Below are positions 220 to 46,128 of a stretch of DNA of 46,128 nucleotides, piece after piece (the stretch's first letter is position 1; each line of letters opens with the position of its first letter). Source of the stretch: a virus; the IMG/VR virus record IMGVR_UViG_3300030110_003801, positions 1-46,128 of that record; one strand, given 5' to 3'. A program made the translations under genes and the position numbers. The notes under the pieces were generated by a model. That model did not search any database. It worked only from the letters and a program-made list of their open reading frames with translations, and was not told the origin of the DNA.

Positions 220-1320
220 CTATCCTCTAATTAATCTAATCCAAACATTATCATCTGTTGCAGTAAACCAGTAGTTAGCGTTAACATGTGCTTGACCTTG
301 ATACGTTCCAGTTATTGTTGCTCCTGTGTAAACTCCGTTTACATCCCAATTAGATGTGTTTTCTAACAAAGTTACTGTTGTTCCTGCTGATAGATACTGT
401 TCAATTATTGGAATTTCTCCCACCGTTCCTGCACCTAAAGCAGTACCTAATATAGCTGCTTGAGTGGTATCTTGCATTTTAGGATAAGTAACTTTATCAT
501 TTCCAATGGTAACTACTCCTGCATTATCTATCGTAGTGTCTCCACTCATAGCTACTGATTGAGCCGCATTTGAAGCATCACCTACATATATTTCTCCGTT
601 ATTTAAAGCTGGTGTTGACCCTGATGAAGCTATAGCATCGTCAACATATTTTTTAGGCACTAATGATGTTCCAACTAAACTAGCATAGCTTGCTCCCGTC
701 GCATTTGTTTCAGAAGTTTCACCAAATCCGTTTAATAAAATTCCATATTTATTAGTAGAATTATCTTGATACAAAGTGTTTGCTGTACCAACAGAACCAA
801 TTGAAAGACCACCATTTCCTGATGATAGACTTACAGATATTCCATCGATAGCTATATCACTTGAACCTTCTGACAAAGCTATTGAACCCGGACTAATAAC
901 CAAAGATGTATAAGCTGTTGAACTATCTGCTATGAATGTTATATCTGTACTGTTAATATTATAACTGTTAACAACATTTGTAGTTGTATCGTTTAAATAA
1001 CCCACTATTCCTGCACTACTAAATCTTGAGTTACCTATTATGTTAGTACTTGAATTGTCAATGTCGAATTTAAATTCTTTGTCATTTAAAGTGTGGCTTC
1101 TATTAGCTAATAGATTTAAATTTGATGTGAAAAGGTTTGCTGCTGCACTAATATTTGACCATATAGCTGCTGTTGCTGAAGAATCTACACACACATAACC
1201 TTCATTTGCAGTTGTGTCAACCCATGTACTGCCAACATTATACCCTAAAGTTGAGTCATCTGTAGCAGTAGGGGCAACAGTTGCGGAATTATTATTTCTT
1301 AAATTTGAAGTATTTTTCAT
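220..1320 (-). CDS. Tail fibre-like protein, 366 aa
   Basis: The protein is rich in Ser, Thr, Asn, Gly and Ala with almost no Cys, as in beta-structured phage fibres. Near residues 20-55 it carries a segment containing VGSTWVDTT and EGYVCVDSS, a short motif commonly seen in phage and prophage fibre proteins. The middle (about 205-300) has the TPALNNGEIYVGD and ITIGNDKVTYPKMQD-like pattern of collagen-like or knitted fibre shafts. It lies 10 bp downstream of the 1254-aa fibre gene and 4 bp upstream of the cut gene, so the three are probably one transcript. No chaperone, lyase or peptidase motif is visible. The receptor-binding role is inferred from composition and place; the exact position in the tail is unknown. 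Confidence 0.7.
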   Translation of the reverse strand: MKNTSNLRNNNSATVAPTATDDSTLGYNVGSTWVDTTANEGYVCVDSSATAAIWSNISAAANLFTSNLNLLANRSHTLNDKEFKFDIDNSSTNIIGNSRFSSAGIVGYLNDTTTNVVNSYNINSTDITFIADSSTAYTSLVISPGSIALSEGSSDIAIDGISVSLSSGNGGLSIGSVGTANTLYQDNSTNKYGILLNGFGETSETNATGASYASLVGTSLVPKKYVDDAIASSGSTPALNNGEIYVGDASNAAQSVAMSGDTTIDNAGVVTIGNDKVTYPKMQDTTQAAILGTALGAGTVGEIPIIEQYLSAGTTVTLLENTSNWDVNGVYTGATITGTYQGQAHVNANYWFTATDDNVWIRLIRG

Positions 1321-1330
1321 ATCAATAATT

Positions 1331-4300
1331 TTATCCTATTATAATCCAACTTGTTCCATCCGACTGAATGGTAATCCAATCGTATTGGTCAAATAACTCT
1401 TGTGTAGTAGATCCGTCTATTGTTTCTGAAGAGTTAGCGTCTATAATAATTTTATTAGCTTGTACTTTTTTCTTTACAACATATATCCTTCCGTCAATTC
1501 CTGATGCTGTAGGAAGGTTTACGGTAACATTATTAGATGTCGTATCCGCATATATAGTGACTTCATCTCCTGCCGTATAAGAAGCTGATGATGTTGTAAC
1601 TAGCTTCATTTCAGCAGAACCATTTACCGATAGTGTAGATGTTGGAGAATTTGTTCCAATACCAACCTTACTGTCTGATTCATCCATATAAAACAGACTA
1701 ACTCCTCCGTTAGTTCTATATTCTACATCAATACCAGAAGTCATTGTGTATAAAGAATCAGAGGTTGTCGTAGACCCTGAAGATGTGCTGCTTAATGTCA
1801 CTCCTAAACTTGAAGCCGTAATGCTTGCCCATTCAGCAACACCGTTTGCGTCTATAGATTTTAAGTACTTATTTGCTCCTGTTGTTCTGCCGTCATCAAA
1901 TATACCTATATATGATGTACCCGTACCTGGGTTTGCTGTTTTAATATGTATACCGTAGTTATCATCAGAATTGGAAACAGTAGCTGCACACCAAATACCT
2001 GCAGCGTCTCCTGCATTAGTTGAAGGTGCTGATGAGCTTGCTGAAAGCCCTACACTAACATAACTGAAAGTTGTGTTTGCATTATTAGCTGCAGCTAAAA
2101 CACCAATATCTTTACCTCCAGACTGAGCATTATTTGCCGACCCGTAAACACCGCAATTTCTGTTAGCAGCATTGTTAACATTACCTTGAACACCGTAAAC
2201 ATAAGTACCAGTGCTTGATGTAAGTTGGGCTACAATTCCTTTTGTACTTCCAACAGCGGAACTACTTGATAACTTCACTAAACCTGATACTATTCCACTA
2301 GCAGTACCCGTGTAAGACATATCTAATATACAAGATCCTGCAGCTGACCCTGTGTGATCTATTTCTATAGTTGTATCTACATTGGATACAATATCTATCC
2401 TCTTAGAGGCACTTGGGGTAACACCAAAACCTGTTGTTGTTCCGTCATCATAAAAAGATGAATTACCTGTACTACTTGCTGAATCCCATCTAGTAACTCT
2501 ATCCGTAGTACCTGACCCTAAAACTATATATCCACTTTCATCTGGAAAGTTTATTGTTCTATTTGCCGTAGGATTGGCTGATACAGTTGTAGTAAACGAG
2601 CTATTGTCATAAACTAAACTAGAACCTGTTAGCTCAATATTGTTTGTTGTAGCATTTCCAATGTTCGTAACTGACTGCAGGTTTATGGAAGAATTAGCAT
2701 TCTCCCATGTCGCATTACCGTTAGCGTCAGATGTTAACACTTTTCCTGCACCTAAAGGAGACGCACCACTATTAGTGTAAGTGTATTTTATAGCATCATT
2801 ATATGTTAATAATCCTGCAGAATTAATTGTTGCTACTACCCCTGCTATAGAGTTTTCTATTTTTAATAAATCAGTGCCATTAGTACTGTTTATATGTAGT
2901 CTTGCCGCTATAGCTGTTGGTTTATCTCCTATAGCTGCGTTGTCAAGATCATTGCTTATAACACCACTATTAACCCATTGACTTAAAGCGGAGTCATATG
3001 CAAGAGTGTCCCAGTCATTTGGTGATGCTGATGTTACATCGGATAAATCATCTAATGCAGAAACAGATCCTGTAATCGAAACATCAACTTGTCCTGCAGA
3101 AGGAGATGAAGCTGTAACACCTGGCCCAACAAAGTTTATTACATTGGCACCAGCTAGAATAGAAGCACCTTCATCTTGTATAGTCACAGACGGATCATTA
3201 AAAGCAACATTTCCGTCAGCGTCTGAAACTTGCAAAAACTTACCTGTATTGTCGTTTCCGTCTTGAAGTCTTAATACGTAATTATTAGCACCACCCGAAA
3301 CATTAAACCAACCACCTATATTGTTAGCTGAGTTTGTTGCTGTGATAGAAGATTTTACACCGTAAGTATCAACATTTTTAGTTCCTTGTAAAAGTATGTC
3401 GACACCGTAATGAGTAGAGAATCCGTTATCTCTTATTACAATAGCTTTTTCTGCGTCAGCTGTAGCACCTATACCAATACCATTTTTAGTAGCGTACATT
3501 GCAAAAGCACTAGGATTTTCAGTTGGAGCACTTCCTGCTGTTCCTGCAGCTCCAGTGTCTGAATAAATAAAACTTCCAGTTACTGAAAAATATTCCGTGT
3601 AAACACCGGATGCAGTACCCTTGTAAACTCTATATGATGTTGCTCTAGGGACTTCTGCCCATGTTATGTCTACTTGTGTTTGAGCAATTCCATCCACTGT
3701 ACCAGATACTTCGTTTTGAGATATACTTTCACCTCCTAAAGAATCAATAGCTGTAACAGTATAGTAATAAGTATCAGCTACTAAAGAGCCTCCTGTTGTT
3801 GTTGAAGCATTAAGTCCTGATACATCATCAAGCTGCCATGCCTGTGTAGCGGAAGCACCTATGTGTAGTTCTTGTTGCGGAATACCGCTTCCTCCAATAC
3901 CTACGGCATTATCCATGTTTCGCAAGAATGTACTCACTTGGTACTGACTACTACTTGTGTCGTAATACAATGTCTGCCCTTGTGTTGCTCCTGCAGGAAT
4001 TAATGTAGCTGCTATTCCAACATTTTCCCAAGTACTAGTGCTTGAGTTATACTGCAACACATCTCCGTTTGCTAATGAATTTAATGTTACATTTTCACTA
4101 TACGATTGAACCCTACCTTTATCATCAACAGTAAATTGACCAATACCCCAATCATTTGTACCTGCAGTACCAAAGTTTTCTAGTTTTGCTGCAGTTACAT
4201 TTAAATCTGTAATATGCCTTGTTAGGACGGCATTGTCAGTCATTCTTTCACCATCAAACCAATATAGATTTCTAAGGTCTGTTGCTGCGGTTACACCTGA

Positions 4301-6153: not shown

Positions 6154-6169
6154 GACTTGTCTCTTTTAA

Positions 6170-6177
6170 CAAATATA
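6170..6177 (-). promoter_or_regulatory. Candidate -7 element (TATATTTG) upstream of tail-fibre block
   Basis: On the minus strand the sequence reads TATATTTG, a perfect match to the Bacteroidota TAnnTTTG element, 16 bp before the ATG of the 245-aa gene. No TTG is present at the matching upstream distance, so the promoter would be incomplete or use a phage factor. It lies in one of the few gaps of the late module (79 bp). Confidence 0.4.
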
Positions 6178-6232
6178 TAAATTATTTAATTACTATATTA
6201 CGTGGCTTCCTTAGTTTTTGTTAGGGTCAATG

Positions 6233-22824: not shown

Positions 22825-23562
22825 TTACTTATGTAATGCGTTTGATATGTATTCGTCCATTGATTCTTTTTCGAAAGAATTCATACTGGATATTCTAATC
22901 TTTGCTTTTTCTAACTCTTGATTATATTTTGCGTCTGCTCTATCTAAAAGACCAATCCACTTTCGTGGCTCTACCGCTGATTTAGCTAACCAAAACTGAT
23001 ACTGAACATATGCATTTACTGCTCTTTCAAAAAACCTGGGAATAACCGGAGTGTCTCCAACCTGTATACCCATTCCATTATAAGTTATTCTTATTTTGGA
23101 AAATGCTGCACAACCAGGGCTTAAACTAATAATGCCATTCTCTACAGCTGCGTAGTAGTAATTGCTAACACCTCTAGTTGAAGGCAAAATAGGGTCATGT
23201 CTATTAGCTTTTTCTGTAGGCATATTTCTTGTAGCCGCACCATCAACTTTTTTTTTGTTATTGTAGTTTCTTTTCCAATGAACGGTAGCGGATGAACTAG
23301 GCGTACAACAATCACCGTTATACAAAACCATTAATCTAATATTAAAAGCATTATCTATCATTGGAAGATTCAAGTCCGAAGGAACATCGAAATCATCCGT
23401 AATTTTTTGATAAAAAGTATCAATAGCTATTTCTTGAAGTGCATCTTGTATTCTGGAAATATACCAACCTTTAGACATTCCACTTCTAAAATCCTTATCT
23501 GCCAAAGCTTGTGAAGCTTCAGCTAAAATGTGATTCACTGATAAGTAATCGTTACTGTCCAT
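22825..23562 (-). CDS. Ring/connector protein 1-like, 245 aa
   Basis: Residues 25-55 read SGMSKGWYISRIQDALQEIA followed by IDTFYQ, and about 80-95 VLYNGDCC followed later by HWKRNY. This WYIS..Q.AL.E.A.DTF and NGDCC arrangement is the pattern I associate with ring protein 1 of crAss-like phages (gp43 in phi-crAss001), which joins portal to tail. The C-terminal half (RFFERAVNAYVQYQFWLAKS) is helical and amphipathic. The ATG overlaps the 264-aa gene by 11 bp and the stop is 2 bp from the muzzle start, so the connector and muzzle genes are translationally coupled. Membership of the family is fairly clear from motif order; the exact ring number is inferred from gene order. Confidence 0.75.
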   Translation of the reverse strand: MDSNDYLSVNHILAEASQALADKDFRSGMSKGWYISRIQDALQEIAIDTFYQKITDDFDVPSDLNLPMIDNAFNIRLMVLYNGDCCTPSSSATVHWKRNYNNKKKVDGAATRNMPTEKANRHDPILPSTRGVSNYYYAAVENGIISLSPGCAAFSKIRITYNGMGIQVGDTPVIPRFFERAVNAYVQYQFWLAKSAVEPRKWIGLLDRADAKYNQELEKAKIRISSMNSFEKESMDEYISNALHK

Positions 23563-35346: not shown

Positions 35347-35387
35347 CCAAACTCTAAAACTTATATTCATGGAAAATCATTCCTAAT

Positions 35388-35417
35388 CAAATATATGAAA
35401 AATTCCTTTGTAATCAA
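35388..35417 (-). promoter_or_regulatory. Late promoter, perfect TTG-N19-TATATTTG
   Basis: On the minus strand a TTG (35415-35417) is followed, after exactly 19 bases, by TATATTTG (35388-35395). This matches the primary-sigma consensus of Bacteroidota (TTG-N17-23-TAnnTTTG). It points toward the HNH, winged-helix and terminase genes and lies at the divergence point of the genome. It shows that late or virion genes can be read by the host polymerase. Confidence 0.75.
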
Positions 35418-35596
35418 GACAGTGACAAATTGTATTAATCTCAAATACGCTATTTAACCCTTAAATGCCTGACCATCAGTATAACTAATTATTTCCCCTA
35501 TATATCTATTTTCTCATACTAGTAAACCATGTCTACATTTATCCTTCGGAATTATGTATTATGGCATTACTAAAAAGCTAGCTGTGCTAACTAATA

Positions 35597-35632
35597 TTCT
35601 TTTCTCTCTTCTTCTCTCTTCTCTTCTCCTTT
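35597..35632 (+). repeat. Polypyrimidine tract, 36 nt
   Basis: This stretch has only C and T, mostly as TTCTCTC-type units. It touches the 11-bp repeat array. Such a strand-biased tract can melt or form triple-stranded structure and can bind single-strand proteins. No coding role is possible in frame with any gene. Confidence 0.8.
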
Positions 35633-35636
35633 GTAT

Positions 35637-35670
35637 TGCATCCGCATGGGGTATGCATTACATCTGCAAT
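35637..35670 (-). repeat. 11-bp repeat array A (minus-strand orientation)
   Basis: Read on the minus strand, units TGCAGATGTAA, TGCATACCCCA and TGCGGATGCAA lie head to tail with 11-bp spacing, and TGCA-nn-TGYA is the shared core. The middle unit is degenerate. It is 10 bp from array B and in opposite orientation to it. Confidence 0.65.
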
Positions 35671-35680
35671 GCGAAACTAA

Positions 35681-35724
35681 TGCACTTGTAATACATGTGT
35701 AATGCACTTGCAATGCATCTGCAT
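35681..35724 (+). repeat. 11-bp repeat array B (four tandem units)
   Basis: Four directly adjacent units read TGCACTTGTAA, TACATGTGTAA, TGCACTTGCAA and TGCATCTGCAT. Every unit contains a two-fold symmetric TGCA-nn-TGYA core, so a protein could bind one helical face repeatedly. The TAATGCACT junctions resemble a DnaA box (TTATNCACA) with two mismatches. The same units occur before the DnaA-like gene at 44368-44404. Confidence 0.8.
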
Positions 35725-36176
35725 AAGCTTAACGGTATGTGCATCAGTACTTTAGGGTTTTGATACCCTGTCAAATGTGAAGTTGGTGTGTCGGGGGGTA
35801 TTACTATAATGAACCGACCCCTAGCCTTTCAGGAGAAAATCGGTAACTTTAACCAGGCCAAGCCATCACAGCAATAACAATCCTTTTTTTGCGACGGGGC
35901 CCCACCATCTCAGCCCAGGACAGCTAACGTATTGATTTTCAGTGACTTACAGGACGTCGTGTAGCTTATTTATGGGGCTTTTTGGCCGTCTGGCCGTCCA
36001 CGGAAAAAAACATCACCCAACACCCACAACTACCACAATCTCAACCACTTAGAACAATTTTAACCTGCTATTTGTCCCCCGTTTTGCTCTTAATGGCCTA
36101 ACCTGTTAACAATTAGTTAACAACGACAACAAATTTTAAACTCTTCAAACCCCTGTATTTATTGACTCCAGGCCGT

Positions 36177-36207
36177 TTGTTAGTTTCCTTAGTTAAACTT
36201 TTATTTG
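36177..36207 (+). promoter_or_regulatory. Candidate early promoter TTG-N20-TTTATTTG
   Basis: A TTG (36177-36179) is followed after 20 bases by TTTATTTG (36200-36207), one base from TAnnTTTG. It faces the early plus-strand operon and lies 72 bp before its first small gene. The 16-bp string TTAAACTTTTATTTGC ending here (36193-36208) recurs exactly at 38895-38910. Confidence 0.45.
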
Positions 36208-36279
36208 CTTTATTCAATAATGCGTCGTATCATTGTCCTGTTGCCGAACTAATAGCAACAACTTTAAAACTTTATTAAA

Positions 36280-36408
36280 ATGAAAAAAATAATCGCTTTT
36301 ATACTATCGGACTTTTTCGCGGAAACATTATTCGCAATACTAATGCTAGGAATGTTAGCTGTAGCAATTTATATCGGAATTATTGACACCATTATAAAAA
36401 ACATTTAA
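36280..36408 (+). CDS. Small membrane protein, 42 aa
   Basis: This short frame starts ATG at 36280 after an AT-rich leader containing ACTTTAAAACTTTATTAAA, similar to leaders of the following genes. The protein is MKKIIAFILSDFFAETLF followed by a hydrophobic stretch of about 20 residues (AILMLGMLAVAIYIGIID) and a short basic tail. It has one clear membrane segment and two Lys at the N-terminus. It is first in the early operon. Small early membrane proteins in phages often block superinfection or disturb the host envelope; this is inference only. Confidence 0.55.
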   Translation: MKKIIAFILSDFFAETLFAILMLGMLAVAIYIGIIDTIIKNI

Positions 36409-36430
36409 ACAAATCAAATTAATAAACTCT

Positions 36431-36444
36431 AAAATTTATCAATC
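36431..36444 (+). promoter_or_regulatory. Start leader copy 1 (AAAATTTATCAATC-ATG)
   Basis: First of eight 14-nt leaders of the form AAAAYTTWTCAATC that abut the ATG. None resembles a Shine-Dalgarno sequence. Confidence 0.7.
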
Positions 36445-42521: not shown

Positions 42522-43421
42522 ATGAATCAATCAATACAACAAATTGAAAACCAAGGAGAATTCGTAGCAGAATTACTCGATAGGTTTCAGCTTTTCTGGA
42601 ACGTAAAAAAGGAAAAGCTTTACACAGGAGAAGGAATCGAGTCGAACTATTATTCGATTAGAAGAGAAGACACGAACCAAGAGTTTTTTGCCGCAAAAGA
42701 AGGTTATGAGGTTTTTCAGAACTGGGAGCTAATAGATATGGTTTCCAAAATTGCACAGCAAAGCGACCTGTCACTAGCAAAAGGAGGATCTTTCCATGGA
42801 GGTAGAAAAGTTTACCTAAAGATTGACACAGGAAGTATAGAAGGCATAGGTAAGAACCACGACCAGATAAAAAAATATATAACTGTCCTGAATTCGCACG
42901 ACGGAACCGGAAGTTTGGCCCTGGGAATGACAAACATTACAATGTCATGTAGTAATACATTTCACAGAATGTACAAAGAAATGAACACCAGGATTAGACA
43001 CTCTGCAAACATGCGAGACAAGGTTGACCTTTTAATGAGAGGTGTGGACAAGATAAGAGAGCAAGAGCAGACTCTTTACGAAAAGTTTTACAGAATGGCA
43101 GCGACAAAGTGTTCAGTTAACGAGACGGTGAGAATGGTGCAAGCTATTACAGGTGTAAACATAGAAACGGATGTTAGTGATGCAAAAAAATTATACAGTC
43201 CAAACCAGATAAAGAAGGCCCAAAACCTTACCGTAAGAATCGCACAAGAGCAAGCTCAAAAAGGTGAGACATTGTGGGGATTGTTTTCTGGTGTGACTTC
43301 CTACACAACAAAAGACGTTTCGAATAGAAGGAACGACATGTGGGAAAACAAGATGACTGGATCAGCATACAAAGCAGATAACAAAGCTTTTGATATGGTT
43401 GATAAAATTACTGTTTATTAG
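42522..43421 (+). CDS. DUF932 family protein, 299 aa
   Basis: The protein follows the order of DUF932 (phage/plasmid TIGR03299-like) proteins: an N-terminal part with YYSIRREDTNQEFFAAKEGY and FQNWELIDMVSKIAQQSDLS, the centre GGSFHGGRKVYLKI and VLNSHDGTGSLALGMTNITM with the SHDGTG phrase characteristic of the family, and a helical C-terminus. Length fits. The family occurs in many phages and mobile elements with no defined reaction; a DNA repair or anti-defence role has been suggested. It is the last gene of the early operon, right before a strong terminator, and carries the canonical start leader. Confidence 0.75.
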   Translation: MNQSIQQIENQGEFVAELLDRFQLFWNVKKEKLYTGEGIESNYYSIRREDTNQEFFAAKEGYEVFQNWELIDMVSKIAQQSDLSLAKGGSFHGGRKVYLKIDTGSIEGIGKNHDQIKKYITVLNSHDGTGSLALGMTNITMSCSNTFHRMYKEMNTRIRHSANMRDKVDLLMRGVDKIREQEQTLYEKFYRMAATKCSVNETVRMVQAITGVNIETDVSDAKKLYSPNQIKKAQNLTVRIAQEQAQKGETLWGLFSGVTSYTTKDVSNRRNDMWENKMTGSAYKADNKAFDMVDKITVY

Positions 43422-44364: not shown

Positions 44365-44373
44365 TTATGCACA
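44365..44373 (+). promoter_or_regulatory. Consensus DnaA box TTATGCACA
   Basis: TTATGCACA is a perfect TTATNCACA match. It overlaps the first 11-bp unit of the array and lies 48 bp before the ATG of the DnaA-like gene. The host DnaA or the phage DnaA-like product could bind it. Confidence 0.65.
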
Positions 44374-44404
44374 TGCATTGCACATGCATTGCGTATGTAA
44401 TGCA
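44368..44404 (+). repeat. 11-bp repeat array C upstream of the DnaA-like gene
   Basis: Three head-to-tail units TGCACATGCAT, TGCACATGCAT and TGCGTATGTAA, then TGCA. Core and spacing are the same as in arrays A and B at 35637-35724. The array ends 17 bp before the ATG and so can act as an operator for this gene. Confidence 0.85.
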
Positions 44405-44420
44405 AAGAAGATAAAAGTAA

Positions 44421-45107
44421 ATGAAAGTAAAAGATAAGATAAAAGCTTTGATATTTTCAATATCGTATAGATCTAGGTCTAGGATAAATGACTATGAAAT
44501 GAGCAAGATTATAATAAAATCTGTGTCAATAGCTACAGGAATAAACCCTGAACTACTTCATAAGAAAACAAGAAAAAGTGAAATAGTTCTAGCTAGGCAC
44601 TGTGTATTCTATCACATAAGAAACAGAACCAAGTTAAGCCTGGCAAAAATAGGAAGGATATACGACAAGGATCATGCTACAGTTCTTAACAGTTGCAGAG
44701 TATATAACAATATGTTTGAAACCAATAGAATGCATAAGGAATTTATGACAAACGTAAGACATATAGACCTGCATGAGAGAATAGTAGACATAATAGAAAA
44801 CTACATTGGTAATAATGATTACCCGGATGGTGAAGGGAAGTTTCCTGAAACAATATCAAATTGGGATAAATTCAAAACCAAGTATAATGAAGCTGAATAT
44901 ATTAAAAAGAAAAATCAGAACACAATGAAAAAACCAATTGTAGATTGGCAAATCAAAAAAGAACCAAGAGATAATTTCTCTAGGTTTGTAGGTCTCAAAA
45001 CCCTTTCAAGGGAAGAGCAGAGGCAGGTAAGAAACATAGTAGCATTTCCATTTTTCATGGCTTTAGCTGCTATTATTTATTCATCAATTAATTTAATGTT
45101 ATCATGA
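44421..45107 (+). CDS. DnaA domain IV-like DNA-binding protein with C-terminal membrane segment, 228 aa
   Basis: Residues about 26-115 align with domain IV of bacterial DnaA, which recognises the DnaA box. The order is KSVSIATGINPELLHKKTRK, then ARHCVFYHIRNRTKLSLAKI and GRIYDKDHATVLNSC. The signature DHATV (84-88) corresponds to DHTTV of E. coli DnaA, with the first Thr changed to Ala. No AAA+ ATPase domain is present, so it cannot act as a complete initiator. The linker 116-204 is acidic then basic. Residues about 205-227 (VAFPFFMALAAIIYSSINLM) form one hydrophobic helix at the very end, as in a tail-anchored protein. A DnaA box and 11-bp repeats lie upstream, and XRE and Rad52-like genes follow (4-bp overlap with the former). 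Origin binding, self-control or membrane tethering are inferred. Confidence 0.8.
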   Translation: MKVKDKIKALIFSISYRSRSRINDYEMSKIIIKSVSIATGINPELLHKKTRKSEIVLARHCVFYHIRNRTKLSLAKIGRIYDKDHATVLNSCRVYNNMFETNRMHKEFMTNVRHIDLHERIVDIIENYIGNNDYPDGEGKFPETISNWDKFKTKYNEAEYIKKKNQNTMKKPIVDWQIKKEPRDNFSRFVGLKTLSREEQRQVRNIVAFPFFMALAAIIYSSINLMLS

Positions 45108-45331
45108 GAGAGCTTTTAAAAGATGTCCTTATTGAGAAAGGAAGGAGTCAGGTTTGGATAATGCAACAGCTGGCCACGAAAGGTATAGAGAGAAGTACAT
45201 CGACACTATCTCAGTACTGTAACGGATACAAAAAACCAAGAGACAGATATGTTTTATTGGTGCTTGCCGAACTTTTAGAGTGCGGTATAGAAAGAATTGA
45301 AAATTGTTTTATCAACGCTAAATCAGAGTAA
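45104..45331 (+). CDS. XRE-type helix-turn-helix protein, 75 aa
   Basis: The whole protein is one domain: MRELLKDVLIEKGRSQVWIM, QQLATKGIERSTSTLSQYCN (helix-turn-helix with recognition helix STLSQYCNG) and RDRYVLLVLAELLECGIERI. The pattern S-x-V-W-I-M-Q-Q-L...S-T-L-S-Q-Y-C-N-G-x-K-x-P fits Cro/CI-type or XRE regulators. Its ATG overlaps the DnaA-like gene stop (ATGA), so both are made together. It may regulate the replication genes or bind the 11-bp repeats. Confidence 0.75.
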   Translation: MRELLKDVLIEKGRSQVWIMQQLATKGIERSTSTLSQYCNGYKKPRDRYVLLVLAELLECGIERIENCFINAKSE

Positions 45332-45333
45332 TT

Positions 45334-46128
45334 ATGGAGCAAAATAGCTTACAAATCGTACCAGAAGGGTATGTAATTGACAGAGAAACAAACACATGTT
45401 ACCCAAAGGGAACAGGTTTTGGAGGAAAACACACGGTGTTGCCTAGAGAATACCGTGAACTTCTTTCACAGCCAATACCGCCTGGCATGATTAGTACTCA
45501 CCCAACTAAGAAGTACTTGTCTGTTATCAAAGCAATTGCGGTTGTGGAAAGAATGAATGATGTTTTTGGAATTGCTGGATGGGATCTGGAACATGAGATT
45601 GTTAAGGAGACCGTAAATGTTATCGAGCAAACCCAATGGGATAATGCCAAAAGGCAGAAAGTGGTAATCGGTAAAAAAGAAACGCCATACATCTTAATGA
45701 AGGGAAGAATGTATATCAAAAAGTTTGATTTATACACGCCTTACCAATATGGTGGTCACGAGACCGACGGTACAGGAACCGAACCTGCGGATGGCTTTAA
45801 GTCGGCAGCTACTGATATACAATCTAAATGTGGGTCGTATCTTGAAATAGGTATTCAAGTATTTAAAGGTCAACCGACATCCAATGTTGCTAATGTATCA
45901 AAGCAGGATACTCAAGAAGCAATGGATCAGGGTGTAAAAAACTTGACAGCTAAGTCAGAATCCGTTTCTAAAACTGATGGAAGTAATGCCACTAAGCAAG
46001 AGGTAGATGCTGCGAAAAAAAGATCTGAAGCTGCGAAAAAAGCTGCTGCTACAAGAAAGAAAAACAAAGAAGCAAAAGATGTTGAGTCAAATGAAAACAT
46101 TGAAGATGCTAATGTCGTAGTTGATGAA
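45334..46128 (+). CDS. Rad52-like single-strand annealing protein (cut by window end)
   Basis: The frame runs 265 codons with no stop to the window end. Residues about 56-90 read HPTKKYLSVIKAIAVVERMN, DVFGIAGWDLEHEIV, and 140-172 GGHETDGTGTEPADGFKSAA, TDIQSKCGSYLEIG. This pattern (FG..GW.......... and G......AD..K.A.TDA.K....LGIG) fits the Rad52/22 family of phage annealing proteins, which pair complementary single strands in recombination and repair. After 180 the protein becomes a Lys/Ala/Glu-rich disordered tail, as in many phage annealing proteins. The ATG is 2 bp after the upstream stop. Neighbours suggest a replication-recombination operon. Confidence 0.75.
   Translation, partial: MEQNSLQIVPEGYVIDRETNTCYPKGTGFGGKHTVLPREYRELLSQPIPPGMISTHPTKKYLSVIKAIAVVERMNDVFGIAGWDLEHEIVKETVNVIEQTQWDNAKRQKVVIGKKETPYILMKGRMYIKKFDLYTPYQYGGHETDGTGTEPADGFKSAATDIQSKCGSYLEIGIQVFKGQPTSNVANVSKQDTQEAMDQGVKNLTAKSESVSKTDGSNATKQEVDAAKKRSEAAKKAAATRKKNKEAKDVESNENIEDANVVVDE

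Follow-up and report, generated by a model that had tools for sequence, protein, structure and literature searches.

The 46,128-bp phage sequence analysed here (the window) encodes a 228-aa protein in which a stand-alone DnaA domain IV is followed by an uncharged, hydrophobic C-terminal tail. An array of TGCA-type iterons lies directly before its gene, and a larger array of the same unit lies in a divergent intergenic region. We tentatively interpret this protein as a membrane-tethered, autoregulated iteron binder that may act at the late-promoter/origin region of a flavobacterial phage of about 63.65 kb. The protein probably joins a known kind of phage domain to a new membrane anchor, and the sites it is likely to bind are listed in Table 1.

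Table 1. Features of the window, its source record and the sister phage G002 (window positions unless another sequence is named)
Feature	Position	Strand	Remarks
Iteron array 1	35632..35724	.	11-bp units TGCAYNTGYAW; chain of 8 half-sites
DUF932 protein	42522..43421	+	module landmark, 45% identical in G002
Exact TTATGCACA	44365..44373	+	overlaps first iteron of array 2
Iteron array 2	44368..44404	+	units TGCACATGCAT, TGCACATGCAT, TGCGTATGTAA, then TGCA; chain of 6 half-sites
DnaA-IV protein gene	44421..45107	+	228 aa; DnaA domain IV residues 30-93, linker about 96-196, C-terminal hydrophobic helix about 205-228
Predicted tail-anchor codons	45036..45104	+	residues 206-228; KD 1.87, uncharged
HTH_3-like 75-aa protein	45104..45331	+	start overlaps DnaA-IV gene stop (ATGA)
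Putative ssDNA-annealing protein	45334..46128	+	weak Erf-like match; runs into the record's 10-N gap
P-II/Amt/porin cassette, window's phage	L003:6755-9369 (record 50754-53368)
P-II/Amt/porin cassette, second phage	record 95569-98167
G002 array before DnaA-IV gene	G002 1317-1376		chain 6; directly before the gene
G002 array in divergent region	G002 54962-55010		chain 5; region matches that of array 1
G002 array before tail gene	G002 22931-22974 (L112-L113)		chain 5; before 248-aa tail gene

Source record and host

The 128,733-base record that contains the window (G000) is a chimera of two related phages joined near 63.6 kb. In a 63,652-bp contig (G001), window positions 1-46128 and record positions 46139 to about 63,613 form, at 100% identity, one unbroken molecule that spans the place where the record has 10 N (46129-46138). 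The window's phage is therefore about 63.65 kb long, and the rest of the record belongs to a different, related phage. Because G000 and G001 do not differ there and possibly share one sample, their match is not independent confirmation. Repeated tail-gene sequence, about 86% identical, is found at the record join and at the record ends. An ORF in the second half of the record (83768-84301) was considered as a further DnaA-IV gene and dropped, with no Pfam match and E=0.03 to a home-made profile.

Both phages of the record carry genes for a P-II regulator, an ammonium transporter (Amt) and a BBP2-type porin in a row, a phage-borne ammonium-uptake cassette. The Amt proteins (Pfam E=1e-117) are 91% identical between the two phages, and since the best matches of the window phage's Amt are from Flavobacteriaceae (70-78%), its host is probably flavobacterial.

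A DnaA domain IV without the AAA+ domain

The ORF, its domain, its tail and the upstream box all lie where a sequence-only reading of this DNA had placed them. That reading had also claimed a DnaA domain IV lacking the AAA+ ATPase domain, and Pfam, a PDB profile search and Foldseek agree on domain IV. The sole Pfam match is Bac_DnaA_C (PF08299; residues 30-93, E=1.1e-16; score 61.1 bits, cut-off 31.5), and because it is the only one, no AAA+ domain III or other DnaA domain is detected by Pfam; only 29 residues precede the match. Searched against the PDB, a profile of the protein and 19 phage relatives matched E. coli DnaA domain IV (1J1V; E=1.4e-13), with DnaA chains making up all six top matches. 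The AlphaFold model has a pLDDT of about 85-97 over the domain; Foldseek ranks DnaA DNA-binding domains at the top for this model (M. tuberculosis 3PVP, E=1e-3) and matches its fold to 1J1V with a TMt of 0.85 and a probability of 1.00.

The DNA-contact positions of domain IV are kept in the alignment to 1J1V, whose residue numbers were counted backwards from the C-terminus of the 94-residue chain. In E. coli DnaA, Arg399 reads the box at its TTA end through the minor groove, and the recognition helix reads TnCACA (PMC5742627). R51 falls opposite Arg399, and D84-H85, the beginning of the DHATV signature (residues 84-88), falls opposite the start of that helix. The window protein thus has the fold and contact positions of the bacterial initiator in common, but where the initiator has an AAA+ domain it has none, and has a predicted membrane helix instead. 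Translation may start internally at Met27 (44499), because the first 26 codons (44421-44498) lie in a purine-rich tract behind the array; codon usage in these codons favours coding, that is, the longer frame. The only close relative of the whole protein among viral contigs was in the identical contig G001, and there was none among genome contigs.

The C-terminal tail

The last 24 residues (NIVAFPFFMALAAIIYSSINLMLS) contain no charged residue and follow an Arg-containing segment, which bears out the hydrophobic helix of about 22 residues that had been claimed; a membrane helix is predicted here. The Kyte-Doolittle (KD) 19-mer maximum is 1.87, at residue 206, and the best octanol-scale sum is +10.9. 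Codon usage favours frame 0 throughout the tail. Such ends are uncommon: an uncharged C-terminus of at least 20 residues occurs in 3 of 1165 phage ORFs, and a hydrophobic segment restricted to the C-terminus in 3 of 797 ORFs of 80-320 aa from related loci. In the AlphaFold model the tail is a helix apart from the confident DnaA-IV domain, with a confidence there of only about 60. The sequence-only reading had staked itself on a domain IV match and on a C-terminal helix not buried in a soluble fold; domain IV was found, and the uncharged helix is predicted to stand apart. By prediction, the protein has the single hydrophobic segment at the extreme C-terminus that characterizes tail-anchored proteins, and a membrane anchor is the simplest reading of this tail.

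Comparison with other phage and bacterial proteins

Stand-alone DnaA-IV proteins are ordinary in marine Bacteroidota phages. They are encoded near related primases in marine phage contigs at 47 of 79 non-self primase loci, and also in the sister phage. Together with ten deposited-phage proteins and one from a further contig, these make 59 others for comparison. They occur in Cellulophaga phage phi19:3 (gp013), Tenacibaculum phage Gundel_1, Olleya phage Harreka_1, Flavobacterium phage tooticki and Pelagibacter phages Skadi and HTVC, as well as in marine viral contigs. The window protein resembles them in its PF08299 domain, its lack of AAA+ and its neighbourhood of replication genes. It differs in size, at 228 aa where the others have 98-180 aa or, when fused to VRR-NUC, about 220 aa, and in its tail: none of the 59 has a C-terminal membrane helix, all being soluble by this measure, whereas the window protein is predicted to have one. 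A membrane tail as a family trait is accordingly rejected, and the earlier remark that no membrane-anchored phage DnaA-IV was known holds among these proteins; we also found none in the open-access literature, which is no proof of absence. Some other phage DnaA-IV proteins have a predicted coiled coil at the C-terminus. In one marine phage (L102:6990-7652) DnaA-IV is fused to a VRR-NUC nuclease, with both domains recognized by Pfam, and similar sequence indicates the same fusion in L042, L043, L053, L056, L099, L101, L103 and L105. Nearly all of 250 Flavobacteriaceae genomes gave one match, chromosomal DnaA; about ten gave two.

Phage phi29 offers a functional analogy, with no claim of homology, of a phage membrane protein holding viral DNA. 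Its p16.7 is an integral membrane protein that organizes phage DNA replication, working via terminal protein and displaced single strands (PMC4974454), unlike the window protein, a putative reader of double-stranded boxes. Iteron Rep initiators of plasmids and phages combine one repeat type near their gene with a second control or origin region, as here; their Rep-type winged-helix domain was not found, and a binding and replication role for the window protein is putative.

Iteron arrays in the window and in a sister phage

The sequence-only reading had pointed to a consensus DnaA box upstream of the gene. The exact TTATGCACA is there, at 44365-44373, the sole exact copy in the window, but it forms the left edge of array 2, and the unit that recurs is the TGCA iteron, so a single-box reading is too narrow. 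We set aside an isolated box, because this one belongs to an array and because the window shows no enrichment of DnaA boxes as such (TTWTNCACA, 11 observed against 8.0 expected). Arrays 1 and 2 are built from one unit type with the consensus TGCAYNTGYAW, and spacing between their half-sites (TGCA/TGTA/TACA) mostly alternates between 6 and 5 bp. The TGCACA half-sites of array 2 fit the TnCACA read by DnaA domain IV. Behind each array, on the side of the nearby gene, is a purine-rich tract.

Array 1 occupies a divergent intergenic region of roughly 1 kb (about 35351-36444), from which late genes run leftward and early genes rightward, and lies near a local minimum of cumulative GC skew; this region is a candidate late-promoter/origin region. 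The two arrays hold the longest half-site chains of the 63.6-kb genome (8 and 6), where 200 dinucleotide shuffles reached at most 4, a test that is not independent because the 5/6-bp spacing rule was chosen after the arrays were seen.

A better test than the shuffles is the sister phage G002 (60,573 bp; L110, L112-L115), which is collinear with the window's phage at 67% identity in the terminase-like protein, 58% in the annealing protein and 52% in the primase. It too has one iteron type in two such places, ahead of its DnaA-IV gene and within the corresponding divergent region. The DnaA-IV gene stands before DUF932 in G002 and after it in the window, with an array directly upstream in both. 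In two of the G002 arrays the purine-rich tract is followed by TATATTTG, which we take to be a -7 element of the kind used in Bacteroidota; the stretch immediately behind the window's own array has no TAnnTTTG. The G002 arrays contain no exact DnaA box. The G002 DnaA-IV protein has no membrane helix despite the array before its gene, so the anchor is not required for association with an array. In a short, poorly resolved tree that does not suffice to place the window's domain, the DnaA-IV domains of the two phages did not group together.

In the window, the gap that corresponds to the G002 array before the tail gene (6154-6232) has TATATTTG and no array. The upstream 3 kb of two further terminase relatives (L120 and L121, the only two read) contained no array; terminase relatives besides G002 are mostly short contigs. 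An 11-bp repeat in Gundel_1 was rejected as a matching array, being of different sequence and inside a coding region.

These arrays look like regulatory elements, whether or not they also serve as replication sites; lying beside promoter-like sites, they suggest a role in transcription control no less than an origin. The earlier proposal that the protein holds the phage origin is strengthened as far as binding phage DNA is concerned, by matching arrays found also in G002.

A gene slot for putative tail-anchored proteins

The slot before the HTH_3 gene, whose product has a 39% identical homologue at the same place in G002, holds the DnaA-IV protein in the window and a tail-anchored 146-aa protein in G002 (L110:2749-3189). 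The latter ends in a strong predicted membrane helix (KD 2.95, model pLDDT over 90). Its N-terminal region, modelled as three helices with low confidence, gives a match to phrog_323, a profile of D5-like regulators (E=4e-7), and is probably an HTH different from DnaA-IV. The DnaA-IV protein of G002 matches a different part of this profile weakly (E=0.005), and the window protein does not match it up to E=0.1. In both phages, then, the slot probably holds a tail-anchored, DNA-binding protein, with different DNA-binding regions. Scans for relatives of the G002 annealing and tail-anchored proteins found G002 alone, so the comparison rests on two phages, too few to make a rule. In another contig a 94-aa protein (L051:2484-2768), encoded about 0.75 kb before a DnaA-IV gene, combines two CxxC motifs, which probably form a zinc ribbon, with a strong predicted C-terminal membrane helix.

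Proposed mechanism and alternatives

We propose that the 228-aa protein may be a tail-anchored, sequence-specific DNA binder whose DnaA domain IV would read TGCA-type iterons, kin to the TnCACA half of the DnaA box. It would bind array 2 before its own gene, giving autoregulation, and also the larger array 1, whose divergent region probably contains the late promoter and perhaps the replication origin. With the C-terminal helix in the inner membrane and the DNA-binding domain in the cytoplasm, binding would tether the array region to the membrane while the phage genome is being replicated or at the changeover to late transcription. The computed basis for this proposal is the domain fold, the conserved contact positions, the hydrophobic C-terminus and the arrays, with their counterparts in the sister phage; array recognition, membrane insertion, and tethering and its purpose are what we infer. 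A broader version, which we offer as speculation and think rather unlikely, is that the slot is conserved for membrane-anchored DNA binders with exchangeable domains that would hold an iteron-marked control/origin region at the inner membrane of the host, much like iteron Rep systems but membrane-bound.

A possible objection is that the DnaA-IV protein chiefly regulates transcription from its own and the late promoters, the arrays being operators and the helix modulating its availability. The arrays do lie upstream of genes with their purine-rich tracts towards the gene, TATATTTG follows two of them in G002, and the third G002 array, before a tail gene, is implausible as an origin. However, the window's own array lacks TAnnTTTG just behind it and array 1 lies close to the minimum of cumulative GC skew, the place expected for an origin, and we judge this explanation somewhat unlikely. 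The arrays might also belong to another protein while DnaA-IV acts elsewhere, and the HTH_3-like protein is the most likely candidate, as small HTH proteins commonly bind operator repeats close to the genes that encode them and this one is kept beside the slot in both array-bearing phages at 39% identity. We find this improbable, given that the array is directly before the DnaA-IV gene in both phages, though its placing relative to DUF932 differs, and that the window's array includes an exact DnaA box and half-sites fitting TnCACA.

For the tail, the alternative is an oligomerization helix or a buried helix of a soluble protein. Its hydrophobicity is moderate beside that of the G002 146-aa protein, it includes one Pro and one Asn, its model confidence is low, and predicted coiled coils end other phage DnaA-IV proteins. 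Against this, the uncharged stretch at the extreme C-terminus behind an Arg-containing segment is as in tail anchors, and the same low model confidence shows no firm packing on the domain; a soluble helix therefore seems to us a poor prospect. Least to be expected is that the protein stops host replication, by titrating host DnaA sites or sequestering host oriC at the membrane. With its contact positions conserved it could bind host boxes, and the tail could keep them at the membrane, but the sequence gives no hint of a link to the host chromosome, the gene belongs to the phage replication module and the candidate sites lie within the phage genome. The earlier suggestion that the protein keeps host DnaA away accordingly gains no direct support.

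To our knowledge, where in the cell a phage genome is replicated, and what holds it there, is known for few phages. If our proposal of a tethered iteron binder is true, a DnaA-box reader built into the membrane, with candidate sites already mapped, would make tethering of an origin or late promoter directly testable. DnaA domain IV would then be a free module that phages have joined to a nuclease, to a coiled coil and to a membrane helix.
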